64,000 bases of DNA from Sipunculus nudus (lineage: Eukaryota; Annelida; Sipuncula; Golfingiida; Sipunculidae), in NCBI GenBank assembly GCA_026874595.1, contig CM049313.1, forward strand, positions 63,802,159 through 63,866,158, read 5' to 3'. This document shows, piece after piece, positions 12,201 to 38,000 of the stretch. The notes under the pieces were generated by a model. It did no database searches and was not told the DNA's origin. It saw only the letters and a program-made list of their open reading frames with translations. Numbering within the stretch: position 1 is the first letter of the stretch; each line of letters begins with the position of its first letter. Position numbers and translations under genes: made by a program.

Positions 12201-13837
12201 ATTGAATAGAATTATTTTCAGACAGATGTTTCTGCCAGAGTTCAAAGTTTGCTGATCGTGAAATTTTCTTATTTCACTTCCATTCTTCCGTCCCGCCCCT
12301 ACTTTTACCACATATTTCTAAGACTCTTGCTGTTTCTTCACCGCATTTTACACACTTGCTCAGCACATGACCGACATGTGATTAACACCTACAGGTGCGC
12401 CACCTCAGTTTAACTAGTTTTATGCGCTCTAAAATGTTCTTTTTTCAATTTCCTTCAAATATGTCGGTAAATAAGAATACTTTAGCTTTTAAATTATATA
12501 AAAGTATTCCTTGGAGCTAGAGGATTCAATTAATACTATATTAAAAAGAATTATTAGATAGATTTATCGCATCAAAAGACAGGTGGCGCCACTAATCATC
12601 GTTTTGCGACTGCTCTTCTTGTTTAGTTGTTTCAAATTCACAAGACACCTATGGATCCTAAATTATCCTATTTCAGTCAATCCCAAGAGAAATCATGTCA
12701 CAGAAAATATCCACATTTGACTTATGTATTGGGCAGGGGAACCGTTTGTGCCTCCCGGTCCTTATATATATATATATATATATATATATATATATATATT
12801 AGGCCACATTTACAGGATCACCTATTTCCTTCTATTGTAGGAACGGAGGAGTGTGATGTTGCGATTTGCGGTCTACGCCGGCGTAACTTCCTATAATGAA
12901 ATTGTGTACCAGGTATCCATACATTACGTGCATGCACTTGTTTATGAAATCCCATAAAATAAATAGTTATCCATTCAGTTTTCCCAGATAAAGCATCAAT
13001 TGTCCACAAAATTAACCTAAAATTCATACCTACGCATATTACAAACAAAATAATATCCAGTTTTATATGCAATATTCAGAAAACGACCGAAAACATGTTG
13101 CGCGTCATATAACAACTGTGACTTAAATTCATCGTTATTCACATTAAAATTTTCGTGACAGGTCCCGCAATTCTCCCTGTTATAACAGATTTCCTTAACG
13201 GTTCTTAAACAGCACCCGTGCCTGATCATCCTTGAATAACACAAGTTTTATTTGCATATATAATTTAACCAACAATTTCAAATGCCAGGGACAATTAAAT
13301 GTTAAATTTAATATTATATCTCCAATACAATTCTTCAAAATACAGACGATGTACTCGCAAAATAATACTAATATGGTTACCTCCATAAAAAAGACATATT
13401 GAAAAAAAAAAATCACCAATGTCCGATATATAAAATGAAGCTTTATCTTATCTAATCCGGACTTAAGGAAGTTCTCTTGATTATTGATAACGGGTGCTAT
13501 CGTTATGACATTGTACAATAATATATCCTTCTGTTTGTAGAAGGTTAAGCTCGGGTCGCCGTACATAGACCAAGCCTCGTATCGGGAAATGCACACGGCT
13601 GCTCTGGGATCAGCTCACAACGTCTTGGACAAAAATACCGAGGGACTTCACGTCGACGACGCCAGTCTTCATCAGGATGTAGAGAAGTTGTTCGCCGCGG
13701 CGTCACCCAAAGCCAAGGTCCAAAACGAGCTCAACAACCCGGCGTCCCTGCCGGAATCCGTGGTGGTCAACAAAGCCATCATGCACGCTGTCACCGCCAG
13801 CCAGGCTGGAGGATTCTGTTCTGTAATTGCAGTGTGA
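66..13837 (+). CDS. Atlastin/GBP-like large GTPase with six tandem helical units (5' partial, 20 exons)
   Basis: Twenty exons, each with AG/GT (one AG/GC) borders, join in one frame for about 857 residues to a TGA. All junctions are phase 0 except one phase 1. The GTPase part matches atlastins more than vertebrate GBPs: W-L-G-x-E-D-x-P-L-x-G-F-x-W, a switch I RTT, LLMDNQG (G3), FLVRDW (the RD guanine-specificity motif) and CFLLPHPGLKVA. The P-loop must lie upstream of the window. After it come six alternating short (22-24 codon) and long (69-72 codon) exons that resemble the single atlastin three-helix-bundle unit. I see no hydrophobic hairpin like the atlastin membrane anchor, so a soluble, GBP-like protein is likely. 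Family members hydrolyse GTP and dimerise for membrane fusion or host defence; which applies here is unknown. Exon set: 66-209, 813-917, 1314-1364, 2384-2452, 2784-2876, 3916-4078, 4902-5023, 5646-5702, 6171-6242, 6650-6865, 7591-7662, 8062-8268, 8671-8742, 9375-9581, 9988-10053, 10534-10740, 11408-11479, 11859-12068, 12841-12912, 13541-13837. Confidence 0.9.
813..917 (+). CDS. GTPase gene exon: G3 motif
   Basis: Thirty-five codons, phase 0 at both ends (attgtccag acceptor, gtgggc donor). AAILLMDNQG gives strand beta3 and the D-x-x-G motif. Atlastins have DTQG and GBPs DTEG, so the usual Thr is Asn here. The helix after it (STVVAISSMISTIQ) matches the atlastin S-T-M-I-S-S-x-Q helix. Confidence 0.9.
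1001..1056. repeat. (TATCT)n minisatellite in an intron
   Basis: About ten units of tatct with two tctcatctaa-type interruptions. Confidence 0.9.
1314..1364 (+). CDS. GTPase gene exon: IYN helix
   Basis: A 17-codon phase-0 exon (ttcacttcag acceptor, gtatac donor). IYNVMRTVRDNHLRELQ continues the Q-[VI]-Y-N motif of the preceding helix, as in atlastin. Confidence 0.85.
1978..2299. mobile_element. Foldback/MITE with CCTCCGCCAAGG ends, in a GTPase gene intron
   Basis: ACCTCCGCCAAGG at the left and CCTTGGCGGAGGT at the right are perfect inverted repeats 322 bp apart. The interior has a poly(G) run and a ggaaaatgctgcattt...tgccatat block shared with the copies at 22795 and 47414. No coding capacity. 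Confidence 0.75.
2384..2452 (+). CDS. GTPase gene exon: helix before G4
   Basis: A 23-codon phase-0 exon (ctgtacag acceptor, gttaaa donor). It matches the atlastin segment linking the L-x-x-L-x-x-F-T-E-x-G helix to the G4 strand, ending in a loop with P-G-E-R-P-S-Q. Confidence 0.8.
2784..2876 (+). CDS. GTPase gene exon: G4 (RD) motif
   Basis: Thirty-one codons, phase 0 (gactttag acceptor, gtaaaa donor). FLVRDW is the atlastin/GBP guanine-specificity motif, followed by Y-K-F-G-x-E-G-G-x-E-Y-L-x-x-x-L-K, which aligns with the atlastin F-S-Y-G-x-x-G-G block. It is the most diagnostic exon for family assignment. Confidence 0.93.
3916..4078 (+). CDS. GTPase gene exon: LLPHPGLKVA block
   Basis: Starts in phase 0 (ccctgacag acceptor) and ends in phase 1 (gtaaga donor), 163 nt. 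CFLLPHPGLKVAGN matches the base-recognition loop of atlastins almost residue for residue. A short acidic stretch (NAEEEGDEGEQ) follows where atlastin has its linker. Confidence 0.93.
4902..5023 (+). CDS. GTPase gene exon: end of G domain
   Basis: Enters in phase 1 (ctttatacag acceptor) and leaves in phase 0 (gtaagt donor), 122 nt. With the carried G the first codon is GAA. FKKALLDLGPFLLDG matches the atlastin/GBP F-x-x-x-L-x-x-L-x-P-x-L-L helix, and LTGSQLANRFL the L-V-E-Y-F-K segment. Confidence 0.88.
5646..5702 (+). CDS. GTPase gene exon: G domain to helical linker
   Basis: A 19-codon phase-0 exon (ttttcag acceptor, gtgcgt donor). RCLSIFQAGVSPDPVIIRA aligns with the atlastin Y-I-K-I-Y-Q-G-x-x-x-P-H-P linker into the helical region. 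Confidence 0.8.
6171..6242 (+). CDS. Helical unit 1, short exon
   Basis: Twenty-four codons, phase 0 (ctgtttag acceptor, gtaagt donor). It corresponds to the atlastin helix written A-x-A-E-A-N-N-x-x-A-V-x-x-A-K-x-x-Y-x-x-x-M. It is the first of six short exons of 22-24 codons. Confidence 0.85.
6650..6865 (+). CDS. Helical unit 1, long exon
   Basis: Seventy-two codons, phase 0 (tttcacag acceptor, gtatgt donor). Strongly helical and charged, ending VLQLEKAIIDQR. It is the most divergent of the six long exons and three codons longer than most. An open frame on the opposite strand here is a shadow. Confidence 0.85.
7166..7222. repeat. (AT)n tract
   Basis: Perfect 57-base dinucleotide run in the intron after GTPase helical unit 1. 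Confidence 0.95.
7591..7662 (+). CDS. Helical unit 2, short exon
   Basis: Twenty-four codons, phase 0 (ttattatag acceptor, gtaagt donor): C-R-T-A-L-V-N-A-K-R-E-F-R-K-E-M-E-E, with the A-x-x-x-[YF]-x-x-x-M pattern of this exon class. Confidence 0.88.
8062..8268 (+). CDS. Helical unit 2, long exon
   Basis: Sixty-nine codons, phase 0 (atatttcag acceptor, gtaaga donor). ASYIDRSSLEKSFFELRNKY matches the atlastin pattern in which a P-x-x-L-x-x-x-H segment opens the bundle; YDKMNEAKR near the end matches the atlastin Y-I-x-x-N-D-x-K segment. Confidence 0.9.
8671..8742 (+). CDS. Helical unit 3, short exon (GC donor)
   Basis: Twenty-four codons, phase 0, acceptor cattttcag. The donor reads AAG|GCAAGT, a classic GC-AG form. 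A GT nine bases later (CTC|GTACAC) would add three codons and keep phase; the 72-nt size of the sister exons favours the GC site. Confidence 0.82.
9375..9581 (+). CDS. Helical unit 3, long exon
   Basis: Sixty-nine codons, phase 0 (tatgttcag acceptor, gtttca donor). Rich in Gln, Glu and Lys, ending RYSQTNEENKKKK, which lines up with YDKMNEAKR of the previous long exon. Confidence 0.88.
9988..10053 (+). CDS. Helical unit 4, short exon
   Basis: About 22 codons, phase 0: P-S-K-E-K-K-I-A-A-K-A-E-E-A-V-D-R-Y-N-K-Q-M. The donor gtaaat is clear. The acceptor is taken as attgaag at 9987 because a pyrimidine-rich tract precedes it; an AG at 9996 would shorten the exon by three codons in the same phase. 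Confidence 0.75.
10534..10740 (+). CDS. Helical unit 4, long exon
   Basis: Sixty-nine codons, phase 0 (actttag acceptor, gtatac donor). LSPEAFGELHADAKDKAMKH matches the atlastin L-x-P-x-x-L-x-x-x-H-x-x-x-K-x-x-x-x-x-x-F pattern closely; YYVKELERYFADEY matches the third helix. It is the unit most like single-unit atlastins. Confidence 0.9.
11408..11479 (+). CDS. Helical unit 5, short exon
   Basis: Twenty-four codons, phase 0 (atgtttag acceptor, gtgagt donor), ending L-Y-Q-Y-R-T-L-M-D-E with the Y-x-x-x-M signature of this class. Confidence 0.87.
11859..12068 (+). CDS. Helical unit 5, long exon
   Basis: Seventy codons, phase 0 (atttccag acceptor, gtaggt donor). It carries the H-Q-R-L-M-N-Q-A-L-M-A-F segment equivalent to H-x-x-A-x-x-x-A-x-x-x-F in the sister exons. 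Confidence 0.87.
12841..12912 (+). CDS. Helical unit 6, short exon
   Basis: Twenty-four codons, phase 0 (tctattgtag acceptor, gtatcc donor): E-R-R-S-V-M-L-R-F-A-V-Y and so on to Y-Q. A decayed duplicate lies at 25082-25133, which supports this being a real exon. Confidence 0.87.
13541..13837 (+). CDS. Helical unit 6 long exon and C-terminus
   Basis: Terminal exon of 98 codons plus TGA (tgtttgtag acceptor, phase 0). SPYIDQASYREMHTAALGSA repeats the Y-I-D-x-x-S opening of unit 2, followed by the bundle and a tail ending G-F-C-S-V-I-A-V. The Cys is six residues from the end, so this is not a standard CaaX box. A damaged paralogue at 26195-26847 keeps the same tail. The region is GC-richer than its surroundings. 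Confidence 0.9.
   Translation, partial: KVKLGSPYIDQASYREMHTAALGSAHNVLDKNTEGLHVDDASLHQDVEKLFAAASPKAKVQNELNNPASLPESVVVNKAIMHAVTASQAGGFCSVIAV

Positions 13838-38000: not shown

Follow-up and report, generated by a model that had tools for sequence, protein, structure and literature searches.

The window analysed here, a 64,000-nucleotide stretch of the Sipunculus nudus genome, contains two copies, A and B, of a junction at which two genes meet tail to tail by their 3' ends: a guanylate-binding-protein (GBP) gene on the plus strand and a gene for a secreted multi-module cysteine protein on the minus strand. We consider it likely that the two copies descend from an old partial tandem duplication with breakpoints in introns, followed by conversion of part of a GBP exon, late insertion of a MITE, and use of the detached cysteine exons in the past. 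A literature search found no publication on this locus, and no Rfam family matched the window at gathering scores.

The first-pass annotation had described a tandem duplication of a convergent gene junction, and comparison of the copies bore this out, as A and B are colinear through exons, introns and intergenic DNA. By their colinear HSPs, copy A spans 12825..19446 and copy B 25067..36113 (both unstranded), with a 5.6-kb spacer between them (19447..25066). A BLAST comparison of A (12800-19300) with B (25030-36100) returned 24 HSPs at E<=1e-3, 14 of which, by our own count, lie on a single ascending diagonal that passes through intron sequence of both genes, GBP and cysteine, as well as the DNA between them; two of these 14 hit one B stretch and reflect a doubled element in A. 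The ten HSPs off the diagonal comprise one MITE fragment, one match at 15031/35315, and eight that join 18.0-18.9 kb with 29.3-30.8 kb in a repeat region that has a further match at 45.6-46.1 kb. A reversed-query control gave 0 HSPs. Colinearity in direct orientation that continues through noncoding DNA is one mark of a tandem segmental duplication; adjacency of the copies is another, and here the 5.6-kb spacer, for which the duplication does not account, lies between A and B. Pooled over 2350 alignable noncoding sites, the copies are 70.4% identical (K80 0.379), an upper bound because only alignable blocks contribute, and the GBP intron alone gives a K80 of 0.35. Nothing was seen that favours an assembly artefact or unmerged haplotypes as the source of the two copies, and with divergence of ~30% and many private insertions between them, such an origin is next to impossible.

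The left flanks (10900-12800 versus 22900-25030) gave a best match of 21.1 bits, below the 22.6 bits of the reversed control, which places the predicted left breakpoint beside TA-rich repeats at 12763-12799 and 24983-25027; we claim no mechanism from this position. At the right edge, a separate search extended the diagonal weakly (19376-19446 versus 36046-36113; 36.8 bits, E 5.6e-4), with a best reversed control of 28.3 bits. Weak matches also lead from the spacer to 41.2-41.5 kb, and the right end of the duplication is thus uncertain. Single-partner matches beyond the edge, at 19745/41223 (E 0.004) and 23758/47506, were not placed on the diagonal. Other candidate continuations past 19446 were rejected as they look like interspersed repeats: the matches at 20.0-20.4 kb pair with 38.2, 41.3 and 48.5 kb, and those at 22.8-22.9 kb pair with 2.2 and 47.4 kb.

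Membership of the plus-strand gene in the GBP family is supported by two exons that exceed the curated cut-off of 21.1 bits for Pfam PF02263: the P-loop exon (29.7 bits), which lies just outside the window at -831..-532, and exon 3913-4107 (24.1 bits). Two other upstream exons matched PF02263 only below the cut-off, and the duplicated terminal exons matched no Pfam family at E<=1. Within the window, the upstream exons extend over 57..12083 (+). The P-loop motif GENRSGKS is shared with C, a GBP paralogue that lies beyond the window, head to head with A (inverted orientation) and ~36 kb from it. In copy A, the penultimate exon (12841..12912, +; 72 bp) and the last exon (13541..13837, +; 98 codons plus stop) are both open, in agreement with their earlier description as intact; the 24 aa of the penultimate exon match the genome at C8:63814999-63815070.

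The same exons in copy B had been called deleted, frameshifted and MITE-hit, and each type of damage was found. The penultimate exon remnant (25082..25133, +) has shrunk from 72 to 52 bp, a net loss of 20 bp, with its AG and GT kept, and the last exon remnant (26195..26847, +) carries a 2-bp insertion, a 347-bp MITE (26382..26728) and a 1-bp deletion. With a disabled frame and no 5' exons, GBP copy B is a pseudogene fragment. A hAT-type MITE is defined by an 8-bp target duplication together with terminal inverted repeats. The element in B, recognised by its terminal-repeat match, its edges and its genome copies, has terminal inverted repeats of ~58 bp and an imperfect flanking 8-bp duplication (6/8 match). 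Scoring 40 of 618 candidates gave 87 genome matches; among those scored, 39 besides the element itself were near-full, 38 of them at 93-95% identity and one at 85%. An identity of 93-95% to its best-matching genome copies dates its insertion into B as late.

The upstream part of the minus-strand gene (37950..56047, -) comprises a predicted exon for the signal peptide, with an ATG near 56047 and a donor at 55974, as well as modules located near 50.5, 47.8, 46.7, 43.1, 40.7 and 38.0 kb. After the predicted signal peptide, each phase-1 exon encodes one module of the pattern C-x5-C-x(6-7)-C-x5-C-x(4-5)-CC, from which the module exon m34 deviates in its spacing (x5, x6, x8, x9). We take the spacing to be WAP-like. 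The WAP domain is defined as an eight-cysteine, four-disulphide core; the modules here, with six cysteines each, fall outside that definition. Searched up to E 10, the joined predicted protein matched no family in Pfam, and four of the modules matched no solved structure.

Module exons m35 (35604..35702, -) and m34 (34900..35013, -) of copy B are both open, as had been reported. Their counterparts in A had been described as orphaned, with one frameshifted. We found m35 of A (19002..19102, -) to carry a 2-bp insertion, with AG, GT and 6/6 cysteine codons kept, and m34 of A (17411..17562, -) to be open to its stop, with its acceptor and 6/6 cysteines kept and an AATAAA ~90 bp past the stop. A m34 has no donor at the position where B m34 has one. 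The description of the duplicated exons as the last two of each gene stands for the GBP gene and is doubtful for the cysteine gene, as B m34 ends in a donor, AAG/GTAAGT, in phase 1, the usual phase of the gene. This donor scores 12.7 bits, and only two sites on the entire minus strand of the window score like it. A consensus donor in phase argues that B m34 is probably not the terminal exon.

The same donor raises an alternative, unlikely but worth weighing and compatible with our preferred history, in which the cysteine exons of A would not be orphaned: the gene would read on from the B m34 donor to the A modules, lengthening the protein and leaving the GBP fragment antisense in an intron. 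The agreement of its phase with that of the other modules and the acceptor, open frame, six cysteines, stop and AATAAA of A m34 all fit such read-through, whereas the frameshift in A m35 does not. The C17 paralogue also speaks against it: its m34-like module is followed by GTAATT in phase 1, and no additional clear module turns up in the 6.3 kb beyond, which makes a separate terminal exon in B as likely. In the 16 kb of the paralogue that were read, no clear module comes after the m34-like one; the 6.3-kb stretch holds three weak matches (E 0.008-0.04), two of them on the opposite strand and one containing a stop, and AATAAA/ATTAAA is absent from the 328 bases after the module. A search of the intergenic DNA for a terminal cysteine exon, by A-B protein similarity of 380 ORFs on both strands, yielded none that stood out by eye as exon-like; the best matches (to E 4e-11) sit in blocks of 71-82% DNA identity.

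The first-pass annotation also proposed that each gene keeps the copy it can reach first. Each gene does retain the copy to which its own 5' exons are joined, but if the breakpoints lay inside both genes, geometry rather than a race between losses would fix which copy each gene keeps. The same structure would arise if the whole GBP and cysteine pair had been duplicated and one deletion, from the interior of the left cysteine gene to the interior of the right GBP gene, had removed both 5' parts, the ends having been functional until then. Anatomy alone does not separate this origin from a partial duplication. We regard it as quite unlikely, even though a single event would orphan both ends together and would fit the hints that the detached ends were once constrained, because the duplication would have to be larger and the deletion placed exactly, and the spacer has no clear upstream-exon trace of either gene. 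No GBP exon was found in 19447-25066 at E<=0.01, nor a copy of exon 11841-12083 at the same threshold. Modules upstream of m35 have no clear copy in the spacer, where the one match is at chance level (21469-21422, E 0.15), and the upstream part of the cysteine gene as a whole has no clear copy in A or the spacer.

Comparison of coding with intron rates, which the annotation had suggested, gave a mixed answer within the GBP last exon. In codons 1-55 the A-B Ks is 0.33, resembling that of the GBP intron, whereas codons 56-98 are nearly identical (Ks 0.017); the corresponding A-C values are 0.87 and 0.12. Among codons for the same residue, synonymous differences between A and B fall from 8/34 in codons 1-44 to 1/46 in codons 45-98 (Fisher p 0.0038), with similar drops for A-C (15/27 to 2/48, Fisher p 6.8e-7) and B-C (13/23 to 3/44, p 1.4e-5). 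When the differences were shuffled, the longest identical run was reached in 52/20000 trials for A-B and in 0/20000 for A-C and B-C. Along the gene, A-C Ks is a mosaic, ranging from 0.29 to 1.49 or saturated. A local drop in synonymous divergence is characteristic of ectopic gene conversion, and the homogenisation of codons 45-98 (13673..13834, +) in common among A, B and C points to such conversion of the 3' half of the exon. Synonymous constraint in place of conversion is a less likely cause of the low divergence of these codons.

The proposal that the duplicated junction resolves by neutral loss is unsupported as stated, given this homogenised half-exon, the late arrival of the MITE and the retention of 12/12 cysteines in the A exons; the spare copies do not seem to have decayed by neutral loss alone. 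Neutral simulation with a branch of 0.19 expects 7.6 cysteines kept (P 0.0043), a contrast that is flattered by similarity-based exon finding, which favours conserved exons. That every cysteine was kept suggests, weakly to moderately, that the detached A exons stayed in use for a time. For the detached exons, four exon tests gave indel counts in keeping with neutrality (P 0.16 to 0.97), and indel density was dropped as a constraint test, as it gave no signal. The pooled A-B Ka/Ks of the cysteine exons, 0.47 (0.286/0.612), is near the expectation for one constrained and one neutral copy. For the detached GBP copy, omega_B is 0.44-0.48 over 44 codons; omega_B=1 is rejected only with the clock fixed from noncoding sites (p 0.039), and free branches give p 0.36. 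Whole-exon GBP Ka/Ks was discarded as proof of selection because half of the exon is homogenised and the 44-codon likelihood answer depends on the clock. The indel counts, the pooled Ka/Ks and the clock-free omega_B would all suit a history with an identical partial duplication, no conversion, and detached exons that were neutral from the outset. We nevertheless judge such a history decidedly unlikely, as the A-B Ks of GBP codons 56-98, set against 0.38 for noncoding DNA, already strains it, and the cysteine retention counts against it as well.

In the history that we prefer, one old tandem segmental duplication would have copied the junction of a GBP-type large-GTPase gene (+) and a cysteine-module gene (-), with breakpoints falling, at its birth, in an intron of each gene. 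Each gene would have been left with one attached 3' end (A for GBP, B for the cysteine gene) and one detached copy. In the last GBP exon, the 3' half would then have been overwritten, presumably by ectopic conversion among A, fragment B and paralogue C; B would have drifted, with the MITE arriving late, and the detached cysteine exons may have been in use part of the time, for instance as additional modules in phase or as alternative 3' exons. More tentatively, one duplication could have had opposite effects on its two genes, with two extra in-phase A modules spliced after B m34, now or formerly, to form a nested, antisense layout across 17-35 kb, and the detached GBP exon serving as conversion partner for two other GBP genes; we think this improbable, though not negligibly so.

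The locus is a paired natural test, in which two genes each had a 3' end detached by one event of one age; the introns can serve as its internal clock, with a third paralogue for an outgroup. If homogenisation between intact genes and a detached exon fragment can occur, as suggested here, exon identity alone would misdate the decay of the fragment. Should the A cysteine modules be used, the duplication that left a broken fragment also made a modular protein longer.

Tandem duplications with breakpoints inside genes leave gene fragments next to their parents (2017, PMC5460883), a report that also describes secondary deletions and altered fragment transcripts. As in that system, gene fragments lie here beside their parents after within-gene breakpoints. 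The word "convergent" occurs 0 times in its main text, and the present event differs in being old (K80 0.38) and in involving two 3' ends, so that no 5'-driven chimera results. Ectopic conversion between paralogues, or concerted evolution (e.g. PMC2720389), provides a second parallel, as a short homogenised exon tract surrounded by diverged introns is seen there and here. In our case, however, partner B is a detached and now broken two-exon fragment, and A and C are inverted.

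The plus-strand gene encodes a guanylate-binding protein (GBP); its P-loop exon, directly left of the window, and its exon at 3913-4107 both scored above the Pfam cut-off. The minus-strand gene, which converges on it 3’ end to 3’ end, comprises an exon predicted to encode a signal peptide (donor at 55974) and, beyond it, eight exons encoding six-cysteine modules (minus strand, ~50.5, 47.8, 46.7, 43.1, 40.7, 38.0, 35.7 and 35.0 kb), all of which we read as phase 1. The genes of the window contain introns. At E≤10, the joined predicted cysteine protein had no Pfam family match, and four of its modules matched no solved structure.

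Masked self-comparison and a sensitive search of block A (12825-19446) against block B (25067-36113), on contig C8 of the 1.43-Gb, 153-contig assembly (window at C8:63802159-63866158), gave a single ascending diagonal from 12825/25067 to 19285/36018, extending weakly to 19446/36113. By our count, 14 of the 24 HSPs at E≤1e-3 lay on the diagonal; the 10 others were a fragment of a MITE, one short match and eight from a repeat region. Noncoding blocks along the diagonal retained 70.4% pooled identity (2350 sites; K80 0.379). This one diagonal through noncoding sequence, with zero HSPs from a reversed query, passes the dot-plot check proposed in the first-pass annotation and confirms the duplicated convergent junction described there. 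The repeat region, with poly-G stretches, occurs in direct orientation at 18004-18948 (within the A cysteine intron), 29251-30805 and 45570-46089. An intergenic element (16402-16493/32581-32675) is 81% identical between A and B, versus 70% for pooled noncoding sequence; it is doubled in A and carries AATAAA on both strands. Minisatellites lie at 27387-27781 (units of ~138 bp, followed by GGACGGA-like repeats) and 37077-37385 (~144 bp).

Of the cysteine gene, A contains copies of the final two modules only; of the GBP gene, B contains copies of the final two exons only. The 5.6-kb spacer (19447-25066) contained no GBP exon at E≤0.01, and its sole cysteine-module match was at chance level (E 0.15). 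The simplest account is one tandem duplication whose two ends fell in introns, one in either gene; this by itself would fix which copy each gene could use, with no race of losses needed. If instead the whole gene pair was duplicated and one deletion came later, the anatomy would be identical and the signs of past constraint discussed below would be better accounted for, at the cost of one extra event.

The GBP exons are open in A. In B, the penultimate exon is 52 bp rather than 72 bp, and the copy has gained 2 bp at one site, lost 1 bp at another and taken up a 347-bp MITE whose inverted ends measure ~58 bp. Scoring 40 of 618 candidates yielded 87 genomic matches to this MITE; among the 39 near-full matches (itself excluded), identity was 93-95% in 38 and 85% in one. 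Because its own changes since insertion can hardly exceed the distance to its 93-95% kin, well under the 0.19 per duplication branch, sequence comparison places its arrival late relative to the duplication. At six places in the genome, two copies stand in inverted orientation with 582-588 bp between their starts and so make up a longer fold-back element, whereas B (26382-26728) has just one arm and a short inverted end.

The cysteine exons are open in B. Exon m34 of this copy (34900-35013, minus strand) ends in an AAG/GTAAGT donor in the usual phase; by weights based on approximate frequencies, only two sites on the window’s whole minus strand score so highly, the other, judged by its score, being the m42 donor. 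The earlier description of the copies was accurate, although this donor makes it doubtful that m34 is the last cysteine exon; it is probably not terminal. In a C17 paralogue, GTAATT follows an m34-like module in the same phase, and that module is the last clear one in the 16 kb read. A third reading would have today's cysteine gene continue into the modules of A. There, m35 (19002-19102, minus) keeps its AG and GT despite a 2-bp insertion; m34 (17411-17562, minus) keeps its acceptor and is open to a stop, with no donor at the position used in B.

All 12 cysteines are kept in A, versus 34 of 63 identical residues elsewhere. Neutral simulations started from the B sequence kept a mean of 7.6 cysteines; full retention occurred in 0.43% of them with a branch length of 0.19, in 1.2% with 0.15 and in 0.05% with 0.24. 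Discovery of exons by similarity biases this retention count toward conserved exons. Indel counts in the detached exons did not depart from neutrality, and the pooled cysteine Ka/Ks of 0.47 is compatible with one constrained and one neutral copy. Given these offsets, there is moderate evidence that the detached cysteine copy was once in use. For the GBP copy it is weak: over codons 1-45 of the last exon (44 codons), omega was 0.44 to 0.48 in B versus 0.16-0.18 in A and C (a head-to-head GBP paralogue beyond the left edge), and an omega of 1 in B could not be rejected when branch lengths were left free (p 0.36) but was weakly rejected under the noncoding clock (p 0.039).

Paralogue C has its own P-loop exon, and its terminal exon lies outside the window (C8:63779371-63779664, minus strand). 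Of ten A exons, eight matched C, one did not, and one gave a low-complexity match only; synonymous divergence across the eight was, in order, 1.49, 0.29, 1.27, 0.51, 0.36, 0.36, saturated and 0.45. The C/A pair (C8:63779371-63815992; window -22.8 kb to 13.8 kb) is a mosaic in its synonymous divergence, as if several conversion tracts lay between the inverted copies. The C P-loop exon frame (window -8187..-7141) has N-terminal degenerate repeats (QGVTDGQAA-like and EEQKAK-like) absent from the A frame. A genome search with PF02263 found 47 GBP exon matches on C3, C4, C7, C11, C12, C13 and C17 and none on C8 at E≤0.001, indicating that the family is large and the C/A pair divergent.

Within the last GBP exon, Ks fell from 0.87 (codons 1-55) to 0.12 (codons 56-98) between A and C, and from 0.33 to 0.017 between A and B. 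Among same-residue codons, synonymous differences numbered 8/34 in codons 1-44 versus 1/46 in 45-98 for A-B (p 0.0038), 15/27 versus 2/48 for A-C (p 6.8e-7) and 13/23 versus 3/44 for B-C (p 1.4e-5), the split having been picked after the alignment was viewed. The longest identical runs were reached in 52 (A-B), 0 (A-C) and 0 (B-C) of 20000 shuffles of the differences. We read this pattern as ectopic gene conversion among A, B and C, including the B fragment; strong synonymous constraint on the half-exon would be the alternative. The A-B differences in codons 56-98 (7.5 nonsynonymous versus 0.5 synonymous positions) fit a B fragment free of constraint after conversion.

The interpretation proposed earlier is partly supported: its geometry holds, but the homogenised half-exon and the 12/12 cysteines suggest that neutral loss alone probably does not explain everything. 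The significance is modest unless RNA shows that the detached cysteine exons are used; the locus is an instructive case of known kinds, namely partial tandem duplication, a pseudogene fragment and ectopic conversion.
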